From contig NZ_JANHDH010000003.1 of NCBI RefSeq assembly GCF_026616195.1, positions 62,001 to 126,000 on the forward strand: a stretch of 64,000 nucleotides of DNA, read 5' to 3'. A program made the position numbers and the translations under genes. Every line of letters begins with the position of its first letter. Position 1 is the stretch's first letter. This DNA is from Haloarchaeobius amylolyticus (GTDB lineage Archaea > Halobacteriota > Halobacteria > Halobacteriales > Natrialbaceae). Positions 9,139-29,113 of this stretch are shown one piece after another. Under the pieces are notes generated by a model. The model was not told the origin of the DNA, made no database searches, and worked only from the letters and a program-made list of their open reading frames with translations.

Positions 9139-10512
9139 ATGCCGCCGACGAATTTCGGGTACGTCACGCCCGAGAACCTCCCCCTGTTCACGGACCGGTA
9201 CGAACTGACGATGCTGCAGGGGTACCACTCGCAGGGCCACGACCCGGAGGCGACGTTCAGCCTCTTCTTCCGGGACTTGCCCGACCAGCGCGGGTACGCC
9301 ATCGCGGCCGGCCTCGAACAGGCGCTGCACTACGTCGATACCCTGGCGTTCGGCGAGCGTGCCCTCGCACACCTCGAGACCGAGGGCTTCTCCGAGGACT
9401 TCCTCGAGCGTCTCCGCGAGTTCTCCTTCTCGGGGGAGATTCGCGCCGTCCCCGAGGGGACGCCGGTGTTCCCGAACGAGCCCCTGCTCGAGGTCACCGC
9501 GCCCATCTTCGAGGCGCAGCTCCTCGAGACCGCGCTCATCAACCAGGTCAGTTTCCAGACCCTCGTCGCCACGAAGGCGCGGCGGATGCGCGACGTGGTC
9601 GACCGGTTCGGCGAGGACCAGTCGCTGGTCGACTTCGGCTCCCGTCGGGCGCACGGGACGGATGCGGGGCTGAAAGCCGCCAGAACGGCCTACCTCGGTG
9701 GGTTCACGGGTACCTCGAACGACGCCGCGGGTGAGGCCTTCGACATCCCGGTGTTCGGGACGATGGCGCACTCGTGGGTGCAGAGCTTCCAGACCGAACG
9801 CGAGGCGTTCGAGGCATTCGTCGCCGAGTACGGCGAGGAGAGCACCCTGCTCGTCGATACCTACGACACGGTCGCGGGTGCACGCCTCGCCGTCGAGGTC
9901 GCCGAAGAACACGGGGTCCCCCTCGACGGGGTCCGACTGGACTCGGGTGACCTCGTCGCGCTCTCGAAGGAGGTCGCCGACATCGTGGGCGATGCCGATA
10001 TCTTCGTCTCCTCCGGGATGGACGAGTTCAAGATACGCGACTTCCTGACCAGTGGCGGGGTTGCAGCGGGCTTCGGCCCAGGGACGAAACTCGTCACGAG
10101 TGCGGACCAGTCGTCGCTCGATGCCGTGTACAAGCTCGTCGCCGTCGAGGAGGACGGGGAGATGGCGCCCACGATGAAACTCTCCCCCGGGAAGGTCACG
10201 TATCCCGGGGCGAAGAGCGTTCGTCGCGTCACCCGTGATGGGTCGCCTGTCGAGGACGTCCTCGGCGTGCGCGATGAAGAACTGCCGGGACAGGAACTGC
10301 TCCAGCCCGTGGTCGAAGGTGGTCGCATCGTCGCCGACCTTCCGACGCTCGACGAGAGCCGGGATGTGGCACTCGAATCGGTCCGGCGGTTCCCCGAGAA
10401 CGTCCGCGCAATCGAGCAATCTGAATCGTATCCCGTCCGTGTCAGCGAGGGGCTCTCGACGACCACCGACGAACTCGAACGAGAACTCGAATCTCGTGTG
10501 GATCGCGAGTGA
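9139..10512 (+). CDS. pncB: Nicotinate phosphoribosyltransferase
   Basis: Makes nicotinate mononucleotide from nicotinate and PRPP in the NAD salvage pathway. The 457-residue protein has the family's N-terminal LFTDRYELTMLQGY, the central DFGSRRAHGTDAG (about residues 173-185), the substrate-site GTMAHSWVQ (about 209-217), LLVDTYDT, VRLDSGD and VSSGMDEFKI, and the late GPGTKLVTS. All are expected for an active enzyme. It is the last recognisable gene before the 9-bp repeat array; the first repeat-like sequence appears within about 20 bases of its stop. Confidence 0.95.
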   Translation: MPPTNFGYVTPENLPLFTDRYELTMLQGYHSQGHDPEATFSLFFRDLPDQRGYAIAAGLEQALHYVDTLAFGERALAHLETEGFSEDFLERLREFSFSGEIRAVPEGTPVFPNEPLLEVTAPIFEAQLLETALINQVSFQTLVATKARRMRDVVDRFGEDQSLVDFGSRRAHGTDAGLKAARTAYLGGFTGTSNDAAGEAFDIPVFGTMAHSWVQSFQTEREAFEAFVAEYGEESTLLVDTYDTVAGARLAVEVAEEHGVPLDGVRLDSGDLVALSKEVADIVGDADIFVSSGMDEFKIRDFLTSGGVAAGFGPGTKLVTSADQSSLDAVYKLVAVEEDGEMAPTMKLSPGKVTYPGAKSVRRVTRDGSPVEDVLGVRDEELPGQELLQPVVEGGRIVADLPTLDESRDVALESVRRFPENVRAIEQSESYPVRVSEGLSTTTDELERELESRVDRE

Positions 10513-11950
10513 GTCGCCGCCCCCTACTGTTGGCTGTGTAGGCTGTGCGAACATTCTACACTGTGTGAACTGTTCGAATTCTGCGCGGCTCGGGCGCTAT
10601 CAGGCCCGAAGGGCGACCGTTCTGGGATCTTCACCCACGGGAAGTTCTGAATGTGCACACATTGTACGAAGTCCACGAATTGTGCACGGTCTGAACCTCT
10701 GGGACTGTGTCTACTTCCCTCGGCTCTTTCTCTTCTGGTTCACTACTCAACTGTGAATACAGTGTACAATGTTTACACCGTGTACACGGTTTCAGATGTT
10801 TTGGCTGTCTGGACAGCGTTTGTGTCGATCTCCAGCTGGTTGAGGACACGATGTGTGTACTGTCTACACTGTGTAGGATGTCTATACTGTTGACACAGTA
10901 AACAGCACAGACAGTCCGAACTGGGTCGACAGTGCGCACCGCCTCAGCAGTCTCGACGGTCGAGACAGTCACTACGGTCCACGAGGTTGGAGAAGTGCAG
11001 GACGTCCACACAGTCTACACAGTGTGCAATTCCTGGGCAGTCCGTACGGTCTGAACTGCACGCGATGCGTAGAATGTACAGCTGCCCCTGGCAGTTTCGG
11101 CAGTCTACACCGCCTACACAGCCCACACTTTCCAATCCGCGGATGAACGCCTGAATAACTATCATTCGAGAGCACACAGTCTAAACTGTCTACAAAGTCT
11201 GGAAATAGAATGGGTCTGAACAGGAGATTCTGGCTTTTATGGCTGTAGCTACTATATTAAAATGTGTAGACCGTCTAAACATTCCTGTAAGTGTCTCTTC
11301 TCCACTTTCTACTCCTTGCACTCAGATTGCACCAGAAGATCGTGGATGCAGTTTACACGTCGTACAATGTCTGGACTGTGCTGACAGTCTCGACAGTACG
11401 CAGTGTGCACGATGCCTGGACCTCGATGACGGTGAGCTGGGGCTGGAACTCTCGAACTGTGCAAAATGTGTACACAGTATAGACTTTGTACACAATCCGC
11501 GCCGCTCAGACTGTATCCGCGGCCCACGCTGTCGAGACGGCTCACCCGTTCTGGGATCCGTCACACCGTCTACACTGTATACCCTTCGTACACTGCCCGG
11601 ACAGTTTCGACAGTCACCGAGTTCCAACTCCCACGGTCGTCCCATTTGAACGGAAAGGTGTGCACGGTTTAGACAGTTCACACTTCCCACACGCTCTCCC
11701 CGCCCTTACAGATGGGGACACCCGCGATTACCTCGCCGGAGACTCTGTCTACACTGTCTACACATCGTGGACCTCGTAGACTGTCTGAACTGTCAGCGAT
11801 ACCGTTAAGTCGTCGGGTGGAGACGGTACTGACCGTGCGGAACGCCCGCACCGCCTGCACGGCCCACACGGTGTAGAACGTCTACACCGTTTCGGCGTCC
11901 TGGGCCGTCTCGCGCCGCAGGCGGTGCGAACCGTCTACACAGTGTACACA
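10513..11950 (+). repeat. Contiguous degenerate 9-bp repeat array, putative centromere upstream of parA
   Basis: About 1.4 kb without a credible gene, made of tandem degenerate 9-mers close to TACACWGTS/GACAGTCTA, so that the palindromic core TACACWGTGTA recurs. The exact octamer GTCTACAC occurs at 10862, 11013, 11103, 11568, 11747, 11756, 11880 and 11933; its complement GTGTAGAC is at 11264. The pair at 11747 and 11756 shows the 9-base step directly, and the phase holds for stretches of 100 bases or more (for example 11385-11575). The clusters are strongest at 10741-10910, 11001-11120, 11345-11480, 11560-11600, 11740-11790 and 11865-11950. The last units end ten bases before the parA start, so the array covers the parA promoter. 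By analogy with RHH-type partition systems this is the likely DNA site for the ParA partner protein, and a site of parA autoregulation. Confidence 0.8.
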
Positions 11951-11959
11951 TCCACGACC

Positions 11960-12787
11960 ATGAGCACACCACGCGCGGTAAGCGTCGCCCTACAGAAAGG
12001 CGGCGTCGGGAAGACGACGATAGCCATCAACCTCGCGGAGCGACTCGCGAACCGGGGGCACGACGTCCTGCTCGTCGACCTCGACCAGCAGGGGAACGCG
12101 ACGGAAGGCGTCGGACTGGCAGACGCCTACACCGCGGAGACCCACATCGGGGACGTCCTCGTCGACGATGGCGATGCCACCCTGGGTGACATCATCCGGA
12201 CGACGGACACCCTCGACGTGTTGCCCGCGAACGAGGACCTCGACGGGGTCGAGAACACCATCCGGAGTGCGACCTTCGGCGAGCTCTGGATCCGGAACAA
12301 GATAATCGAACCACTGCTCGGTGACGAGTACGACTACATCGTCATCGACTCGCCCCCGAACCTCGGGCCGCTCTCGGACGCCTCGCTCATCGCGAGCCAG
12401 CACGTCATCGTCCCGCTCCGGATGAGCGAACCGAGCGTGAGTGGGTTCGAGCGCATGTTCAAACAGCAGATCGTCCCCATCCGCCAGGAGATCGACCTCG
12501 ACATCCTCGCCATCGTCCCGAACGCGACGTCCGGGACCAACGAGGAGAAGCGCATCATCACCGACCTGGAGGAGTCCCAGTTCGGCGAGTTCCTCCCCAC
12601 GTTCGGCCGGTCTGCACACTTCGACGACCCCGAATCCCCGGGGCCGGGCATCCGCGAACGCATCGCGTTCCGGCGCTCCTGGCGCGAGGGGCTCCCCCTC
12701 GCGGAGTACGACCCCGAGAACGACATGCTCGGGCGGCTGGACGAACTGGCCGGTGTCGTCGAGGACGGAGGTGTCGCAGATGCCTGA
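11960..12787 (+). CDS. parA: ParA/Soj-type partition ATPase
   Basis: A 275-residue Walker-type ATPase for DNA segregation. The deviant Walker A is KGGVGKTT (13-20), followed by VLLVDLDQQGNAT (37-49) and Walker B YIVIDSPPNLG (127-137). There is no N-terminal DNA-binding domain, so this is the short ParF/SegA-like class rather than the P1 ParA class. I chose the ATG at 11960 (MSTPRAVSVALQ); the frame upstream is repeat DNA that only by chance reads as VYTVYT. The gene overlaps the next gene by eight bases, a typical partition operon. Expression is probably repressed by the partner protein bound to the repeats around the promoter. Confidence 0.92.
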   Translation: MSTPRAVSVALQKGGVGKTTIAINLAERLANRGHDVLLVDLDQQGNATEGVGLADAYTAETHIGDVLVDDGDATLGDIIRTTDTLDVLPANEDLDGVENTIRSATFGELWIRNKIIEPLLGDEYDYIVIDSPPNLGPLSDASLIASQHVIVPLRMSEPSVSGFERMFKQQIVPIRQEIDLDILAIVPNATSGTNEEKRIITDLEESQFGEFLPTFGRSAHFDDPESPGPGIRERIAFRRSWREGLPLAEYDPENDMLGRLDELAGVVEDGGVADA

Positions 12788-13229
12788 CGACAACCGGTTC
12801 GCAGGCCTGAGCGAGGCCGTCGAGGGTGAGGAGGAGGTCGAGGAACCGGACGAGGTGGCTCCCGATGCCGACTCGGAGCCGACCCAGTCGACCGAATCGA
12901 CCGAATCAACCGAGCCTACGGCCGATTCGGCGTCGACGACCGAGGATACGGAATCCGAGGCTGAATCCACGGGTGAAGACGAGGAGCAGGAAGAAGAGAC
13001 GGACCCGTCCGCGTTCCCCTTCGACGCGACGAAGAAGAAGACGGTGTACGTGCGCGAGCCGACCATCGAGCGACTGGAGGACGCCCAGGCTCTGGTCGAC
13101 GCCCAGCTCCGGACCGAACACGACGTCCGGAGCCTGACCGGGCGCGAGTTCTACGACGCGGTGTTCCGTGTGGCGGCATCGGACACCGACGCGCTCATCG
13201 AGGAGATCATCGAGGCCCGCGAGGAGTAG
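12780..13229 (+). CDS. Putative centromere-binding partner of ParA (RHH-like)
   Basis: A 149-residue protein whose ATG overlaps the end of parA. Residues 1-80 are acidic, Ser/Thr/Glu-rich and probably disordered (STES/TEST repeats). Residues 85-149 are compact: a basic KKK followed by the strand KTVYVRE (87-93), a helix TIERLEDAQALVDAQL, a polar turn, then a second long helical region ending EEIIEAREE. Strand-helix-helix after a basic patch is the ribbon-helix-helix arrangement used by ParG, omega and SegB partners of short ParA ATPases. The assignment to RHH is inference from the pattern and position; no ParB-type HTH is present. The likely role is to bind the 9-bp array and stimulate ParA. 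Confidence 0.65.
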   Translation: MPDDNRFAGLSEAVEGEEEVEEPDEVAPDADSEPTQSTESTESTEPTADSASTTEDTESEAESTGEDEEQEEETDPSAFPFDATKKKTVYVREPTIERLEDAQALVDAQLRTEHDVRSLTGREFYDAVFRVAASDTDALIEEIIEAREE

Positions 13230-27852: not shown

Positions 27853-27978
27853 GTCGCTAACTGAATGGGGTCGGCGCGAAAAGGTTGCCCCTCCCGGTTC
27901 TCGGACGGTCCCACTGGAATCGGTGTCCGCCAGAAGGCGATGACGCGTCCACAAGCAGGAACCATCGCCGGCACGTCG

Positions 27979-28034
27979 TTCGAACTGTCTACACAGTGTA
28001 AACATTCGACACTGTGTGAAATGTGTTTACGTCC
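27979..28034 (+). repeat. Satellite array of the same 9-bp repeats as the ParA locus
   Basis: Six consecutive 9-base units, read as gaactgtct, acacagtgt, aaacattcg, acactgtgt, gaaatgtgt and ttacgtccc. They include the octamer GTCTACAC at 27987-27994 and the core TACACAGTGTA. The block sits in the short intergenic gap between the alcohol dehydrogenase stop and the HTH_10 regulator start, about 16 kb from the main array. It is probably a second binding site for the ParA partner protein. Confidence 0.7.
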
Positions 28035-28051
28035 CAGGAGTCGTAGATGAT

Positions 28052-29113
28052 TCAGAACTCGGTCACGACTTCGATGCCACTCGTCTCGTAATCGCTCATG
28101 GCAGCCAGTCGGTCGGAGACCGCCGCCAGTGAGACGCGATTGGTGACCAGCGCACCCGGGTCGAGCCGGCCCGACGCCATCATCGTCAGCAGTTCGTCGT
28201 AGCGCGAGGGCGGCATCCCCCGCGAGCCGAGGAAGTCCACGTCCCAGCGCGTCATCGCGTCGATGGGCAAGGCGACCTCGCCCTTCTCCGCCTCGGTCGT
28301 CAGGCCGAGCTGGACGTGGGTGCCTCGCGTCGCGAGGCAGTCGACGCTGTTGCGGCAGGTCTCTGCGCGCCCGAGGGCGTCGACAGATACGTCGGCGCCG
28401 CCGCCGGTTCTCTCTTGGATAGCTCCCGGCACGTCCTCGGTCGCACTGGCATCCACTATCGCGTCGGCGCCCAGACGCTGGGCCATCGAGAGCGGTTCCT
28501 CGCGGACGTCGACCGCGACGACGCTGGCCCCGAGCGCAGACGCGATCTGCACCCCTGCGAGGCCGAGCCCGCCGCAGCCGTGGATGGCGACCCAGTCACC
28601 ACCCCCGACCGCGGCCCGGTGCGAGAGCGCGTGGAAGGCGGTGACGTAACGACACCCGAGCGCGGCGACGTCCTCGGCCGAGACACCCTCGGGGAGTGTA
28701 ACCGCGTTGAAATCGGCGTTGGGGACGTGGACCTGTTCGGCGAACGCGCCCGGGGCATCGGCCTCGAAGCCGAGGGCGTAGCCGTCGTCACAGACGTTCC
28801 CGTGGCCGTTGCGACACTGTGGGCAGGTGCCGTCGCCGAGGTTGAACGGGACGGCGACGCGGTCGCCGACCGCGAGTTCGGTCACCTGGTCGCCGACCGC
28901 GACGACCGTCCCTGCGGGTTCGTGGCCGAGTACCTGCCCGAGTGGTACCTGGTCGTCGGCCCACTCGCCGTGGCCCTGCCAGGCGTGCCAGTCGCTCCGG
29001 CAGATGCCACAGGCCTCGACCTCGACGACCGCACCATGCTCTGCAGGCTCCGGGGAGTCGAGCGATTCGAGGACGAGTGGTTCGCCGTATTCCTCCAGGA
29101 CGAGCGCGCGCAT
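28052..29113 (-). CDS. Zinc-dependent alcohol dehydrogenase family protein
   Basis: A 353-residue medium-chain dehydrogenase. The catalytic zinc region shows CGICRSDWHAWQG (Cys36 onward) and GHEPAG; the structural zinc loop is CPQCRNGHGNVC, which keeps three Cys with a His nearby. The NAD(P)-binding fold shows IHGCGGLGLAGVQIA. It oxidises or reduces an alcohol/aldehyde pair that cannot be named. It lies between the UspA gene and the repeat satellite on the minus strand, with no clear operon partner. Confidence 0.9.
   Translation of the reverse strand: MRALVLEEYGEPLVLESLDSPEPAEHGAVVEVEACGICRSDWHAWQGHGEWADDQVPLGQVLGHEPAGTVVAVGDQVTELAVGDRVAVPFNLGDGTCPQCRNGHGNVCDDGYALGFEADAPGAFAEQVHVPNADFNAVTLPEGVSAEDVAALGCRYVTAFHALSHRAAVGGGDWVAIHGCGGLGLAGVQIASALGASVVAVDVREEPLSMAQRLGADAIVDASATEDVPGAIQERTGGGADVSVDALGRAETCRNSVDCLATRGTHVQLGLTTEAEKGEVALPIDAMTRWDVDFLGSRGMPPSRYDELLTMMASGRLDPGALVTNRVSLAAVSDRLAAMSDYETSGIEVVTEF

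Follow-up and report, generated by a model that had tools for sequence, protein, structure and literature searches.

Organization of the parA locus

The DNA stretch analyzed here (the window; 64,000 nucleotides) belongs to a large secondary replicon, a 754-kb contig (C3; 753,550 bp), of the salt-loving archaeon Haloarchaeobius amylolyticus. It carries a gene for a ParA-type ATPase (parA), which is preceded by a long array of short repeats and overlaps at its end with a gene for a small acidic protein, referred to below as the partner. The features of this locus, in positions of the window, are as follows:

10528..11958, no strand: repeat array with a 9-bp step (ASACNGTST), proposed centromere and operator (Viterbi path of a hidden Markov model, autocorrelation, model gain)
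10528-10578, 10638-10719, 10746-10819, 10847-10899: in-phase blocks 1-4 of the array (Viterbi path)
10902-11134, 11172-11205, 11258-11294, 11342-11615: in-phase blocks 5-8 (Viterbi path)
11655-11692, 11745-11794, 11817-11958: in-phase blocks 9-11 (Viterbi path)
11960..12787, + strand: parA, encoding a deviant Walker-A ATPase of 275 amino acids without an N-terminal DNA-binding domain (Pfam)
12780..13229, + strand: gene of the acidic partner of 149 amino acids, proposed centromere-binding protein (order and overlap kept in relatives)
12780..12809, + strand: conserved N-terminus of the partner (MPDDNRFAGL), a tail that may activate ParA (alignment)
13011..13226, + strand: C-terminal domain of the partner, 72 amino acids, proposed to bind DNA (AlphaFold2 and alignment)

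The 1447 bp that separate parA from a nicotinate phosphoribosyltransferase gene (9139-10512) are gene-free and have a GC content of 54%, compared to 65% for the window. Autocorrelation of this tract (10513-11959, against 500 dinucleotide shuffles) gave an identity of 0.419 at lag 9 (z 14.3), with further peaks at lags 18 (z 9.9), 27 (z 9.3), 36, 45, and 54. Lags 3, 6, 12, and 15 fell below expectation and no multiple of 3 other than those of 9 gave a peak, which rules out codon periodicity as the source of the signal. A circular hidden Markov model (HMM) with nine states gained 362 nats on the tract, whereas shuffles gained 12-20 nats and models with periods of 6, 7, 8, 10, 11, and 12 gained 28-93 nats; transition rates were set by hand and arrays were called by margins, not by probabilities. 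A period of 18, i.e., paired units, reached 375 nats with twice the number of parameters, which is little above period 9, and was rejected. The 9-bp period of this gene-free tract of 1.4 kb, first noted in a preliminary description of this DNA, is therefore well established.

The fitted unit is YRSACNGTS (cyclic form ASACNGTST), which reads nearly the same on both strands (p 0.01, column permutation) and agrees with the core TACACWGTGTA proposed earlier; the direct 9-base step previously noted at 11747/11756 is likewise present, with GTCTACAC at both positions. The Viterbi path through the period-9 HMM contains 107 complete units and 1068 bp in phase (119 unit lengths), distributed over 11 blocks of 34-274 bp (4-30 units) that are separated by phase breaks, rather than the up to approximately 150 contiguous 9-mers initially envisaged. 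At least three of the four core bases are matched in 80 of the 107 units, and the last block ends at 11958, just before the start of parA at 11960. Neighboring units resemble each other no more than units far apart do (0.496 vs. 0.477), so that recent tandem duplication does not explain the array.

ParA and its partner protein

The ParA protein matches the Pfam families AAA_31 (E 1.6e-38, residues 5-169) and CbiA (E 5.9e-18). Its nearest solved relatives are the Soj proteins of H. pylori and Thermus (E 2.5e-23 to 1e-21), with ParF at only E 2e-6, and its earlier placement in the ParF/SegA class consequently has to be revised in favor of Soj/ParA. The partner gene overlaps parA by 8 nt and forms a two-gene operon with it. 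No family of Pfam or NCBIfam matched its product at cut-off, and no ParB Pfam model was among the matches.

Across the relatives the partner begins with MPxDNRFAGL, in which F7 is invariant and N5 and L10 are nearly so; arginine R6 is part of this NRFAGL motif, whereas a second class of partners, starting with PFDDL, lacks it. The acidic linker that follows is variable in the alignment, and residues 11-70 were modeled with low confidence (predicted local distance difference test, pLDDT, 42-53). The preliminary description had proposed that fold prediction be applied to the partner. AlphaFold2 yielded a confident C-terminal domain (mean pLDDT 93.7), consisting of an extended segment followed by helices at 16-37, 44-57, and 59-71, with F, Y, R, RE, DA, and R as invariant columns, but this domain found no fold match. 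The order of its elements is compatible with a ribbon-helix-helix (RHH) fold, which had been suggested on that ground and may be considered as a hypothesis; searches with Pfam, PDB sequences and profiles, Foldseek, and hhalign gave no RHH match, although a model of a monomer cannot show an inter-chain ribbon. An hhalign comparison of the C-terminal profile with seven RHH proteins encoded in this genome found nothing, the reversed control scoring higher, and a profile search against all PDB chains (E up to 10) listed no chain named SegB.

Conservation and replicon specificity of the array

Among the 125 genomes of the family surveyed, we found 26 ParA homologues with 77-94% identity besides the one described here (L005-L030), all with an overlapping partner gene; the partner gene of L015 starts with GTG and was, hence, missed under an ATG-only rule. 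The loci reside on circular plasmids of haloarchaea, 100-500 kb in size, including named plasmids of Haloterrigena, Natronorubrum, Halostagnicola, Haloferax, Salinibaculum, and others. The search of further haloarchaeal parA loci recommended in the preliminary description revealed an array at 34 of 35 loci with an NRFAGL partner (32 of 33 once two plasmids that occur in duplicate are counted singly). None was found at five partner-less ParA loci (~50% identity) or at five more distant ones (33-36% identity) with other downstream proteins. The proposed layout of a parA-partner operon with a centromere-type repeat array upstream is, therefore, conserved on many haloarchaeal secondary replicons. 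In 22 distinct relatives (L035-L058) the gene bordering the array on the side away from parA encodes a HerA-like (DUF87) protein.

In the nearest relative the parA DNA is 90% identical and the array 54%, the latter value being approximate as it derives from aligning a repetitive tract. Conservation is concentrated in the core columns (0.61-0.73), compared to 0.46 for the center and 0.40 for the spacers. Word, step, and position have, however, been kept across about ten genera despite this sequence turnover. Together with the lack of excess likeness between neighboring units, this pattern is best explained by selection on word and step rather than by copying.

The repeats are also specific for their replicon. 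When C3 was scanned over its full 753,550 bp with a position weight matrix (PWM), along with 440 kb from contigs C1 and C2, strong islands (hereafter satellites) appeared, besides the main array, only on C3; there were four of them, scoring 31-47 bits where the control reached at most 12.3, and a weak additional island lay at C3 411937. A profile built without the satellites gave 42 matches in the whole genome (4.6 Mb), all on C3. In 17 relatives the matches listed fall on the replicon carrying parA, with the exceptions of G018:C4 and G021:C10, the latter from a draft assembly. The array profile had no matches in three genomes that lack a close ParA homologue (E of about 1e-5 to 1e-6 at best).

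Related arrays with other words and steps

In a ParA clade with 39-45% identity, the partners begin with PFDDL or similar and the arrays use other 9-bp words, often CTAYNRTAG and, in a smaller group, ACATWATGT. The period-9 signal was strong in 19 and weak in 7 of the 39 PFDDL cases (37 distinct loci), counts that derive from a selected sample. Halostagnicola larsenii has both types: one of its plasmids bears the ASACNGTST word, a second one a CTAYNRTAG-like array accompanied by the other class of partner. An 8-bp step occurs in H. amylolyticus itself: on the 74-kb contig C5, a tract of ~430 bp of TGANTCAN lies upstream of a different parA (L229:1326-2234, minus strand; L229 = G000:C5:49500-55500), with an HMM gain of 115 at period 8 vs. 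16 at period 9. This pattern is confined to C5 within the genome and is present at 20 out of 20 full-length homologues of the C5 parA (89-100% identity, own copy included); a truncated copy has no array. Many haloarchaeal plasmids, to judge from these sequences, repeat this layout while differing in the word or using a step of 8 bases. What was originally described for a single locus is, thus, a system of a general type, which occurs with several words and with two or more step lengths and has satellites elsewhere on its replicon.

Two further ParA loci of this genome, on C4 and C1 (L230 and L231), have overlapping acidic partners starting with MTGLKSGAG or MTGMKKGAG, but the 1 kb preceding them shows no periodic array.

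A putative partition system with a repeat centromere

We consider it likely, with a probability of roughly 0.8, that the locus is a ParA-type partition system of a haloarchaeal secondary replicon in which the array is the centromere read by the 149-amino-acid partner. The array would, very probably, be the DNA site that allows the replicon to be distributed to the daughter cells. In type Ib systems, which have the same layout, small dimers on four or more contiguous repeats activate ParA (PMC9499535; PMC5016525). The locus shares with such systems a ParA without N-terminal helix-turn-helix (HTH), a small overlapping downstream gene, and an upstream repeat array. From this layout, the gene overlap, the contiguous upstream repeats, and the N-terminal motif we infer a type Ib mechanism, comprising DNA binding, formation of a coat, stimulation of ParA, segregation, and repression. 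Partner dimers would use their C-terminal domain to bind successive near-palindromic 9-bp words, thereby covering the array with an uninterrupted coat which, since each 9-bp unit falls ~51 degrees short of a full helical turn, would wind left-handed; the blocks of 4-30 in-phase units may represent cooperative binding runs. The flexible acidic linker and the N-terminal NRFAGL would allow contact with ParA-ATP on the nucleoid, triggering ATP hydrolysis and pulling the replicon. As the array reaches the start of parA, the bound partner would also be expected to autorepress the operon. The satellites may provide extra binding islands on the parA replicon.

Some observations weigh against this interpretation. 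Sequence and profile searches detected no homology of the partner to known centromere-binding or RHH proteins, and Foldseek searches with both the full-length and the C-terminal models gave no match of value. Salinigranum marinum, the sole exception among the NRFAGL loci, possesses parA and partner without a clear array, and about half of the clade with 39-45% ParA identity shows a weak or no period-9 signal in the same test. The contrast between parA and the array in the nearest relative, furthermore, leans on an approximate alignment.

The abutment of the array on the start of parA, and the fact that most relatives have a divergent DUF87/HerA-like gene on its other side, would also fit an array that is mainly an operator, through which the partner autorepresses parA (and the HerA-like gene in those relatives) with partition secondary or absent. 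We regard this as unlikely, as 107 units over 1.4 kb are far too many, satellites occur elsewhere and are confined to one replicon, and the repeats of known type Ib systems do both jobs (PMC5016525). Still less probable is a replication origin, with the repeats as iterons for Rep or Orc1/Cdc6 and parA merely adjacent. An orc1/cdc6 gene does lie ~0.5-2 kb from the partner gene in Haloferax plasmids, and the Deinococcus iteron tracts upstream of parAB are both origin and centromere (PMC7671480). However, there is no orc1 near the array described here, the nearest of three orc1-like matches on C3 being ~124 kb away, and the array tracks the partner gene rather than orc1. A neutral degenerate tandem repeat, generated by slippage and located beside parA by chance, would account for a degenerate, gene-free tract of lower GC content, but it is very improbable in view of the conserved word, step, and position, the lack of excess similarity between neighbors, and the confinement of the satellites to one replicon.

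More tentatively, the partition system proposed above may belong to an undescribed class of haloarchaeal centromeres, made up of an 8- or 9-bp palindromic word repeated at a fixed step, a DNA-binding domain of no known family as its reader, and replicon-specific satellites; we put this forward as a possibility that is, at present, somewhat doubtful. If true, word and step would set plasmid compatibility. Candidate sites and a candidate adaptor are now at hand on plasmids of the genetically tractable Haloferax, and natural variants in word and step are available for work on specificity and incompatibility.

Comparison with known systems

The type Ib delta/omega system of pSM19035, in which omega is an RHH protein, likewise has a small ParA without N-terminal HTH, a partner with a flexible N-terminus, and contiguous short repeats overlapping promoters, of which at least four (7 bp each) are needed (PMC9499535). 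It differs in its 7-bp repeats, its three parS sites of 9, 7, and 10 units, and its separate transcription (PMC5016525), whereas the locus described here has ~107 near-palindromic units of 9 bp, a single operon, and a partner that is not homologous by the tests used. The type Ib ParA/ParB system of the Leifsonia plasmid pCXC100 has a centromere of direct repeats only (PMC5016525). This is, however, a bacterial system. Its repeats are said to be 9 bp long, in which case the 9-bp step itself would not be unique, and reportedly are far fewer. The Saccharolobus SegA/SegB system also combines an archaeal ParA homologue with an overlapping small DNA-binding partner. SegB, however, recognizes 13-bp palindromes (TCTAGASTCTAGA) that are dispersed along the chromosome (PMC12284271) with no phased array. 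The 9-bp arrays are phased and confined to one replicon, unlike such dispersed 13-bp sites. In Deinococcus, cisII and cisMP are repeats upstream of parAB on secondary replicons too, but these consist of 11 and 8 copies of 18-bp iterons to which ParB and DnaA bind (PMC7671480). TP228 ParF/ParG shares the upstream centromere and the order of parA and a small centromere-binding protein, although the ATPase of our locus is nearer to Soj than to ParF. The tandem palindromic 8-bp met boxes, bound side by side by MetJ, come close to the 8- and 9-bp near-palindromes, but MetJ represses transcription and its boxes are few.

Repeat centromeres with small partners are, thus, known in bacteria. In the open-access literature searched we found no archaeal centromere of the short-repeat-array kind, in line with the preliminary description, and the haloarchaeal case is, as far as we could find, the first archaeal example. 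It stands out by its unusual length, the near-palindromic units, the diversity in word and step, and the satellites.

Satellite islands and neighboring genes

The satellites on C3, all four intergenic as far as the open reading frame calls show, are:

27973-28053 of the window (C3 89973-90053), no strand: intergenic island of ~9 units (PWM 46.8 bits; profile E 6e-7 genome-wide, profile E-values being rough)
C3 20075-20155, 598112-598174, and 632552-632632: further islands (PWM scan)

The HerA-like DUF87 homologue of this replicon (L137) lies at ~C3:18326-20038, ~54 kb from the array, with a satellite just upstream. Since a HerA-like gene flanks the array in relatives, this satellite is probably a piece of an ancestral array that was split off by rearrangement. 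A role of a satellite as conserved operator of a bacterio-opsin-activator gene was rejected, the neighboring genes being 27-28% identical and not orthologous. In nine plasmids distal satellites lie near half a replicon away from the array; the three plasmids checked share gene neighbors there, which makes synteny the simpler cause of this position.

An orc1/cdc6-like gene is located at C3:623652-624824, with satellites 8 and 26 kb away, and weaker orc1-like matches occur on C3 at 198414-199388 and 423030-423551.
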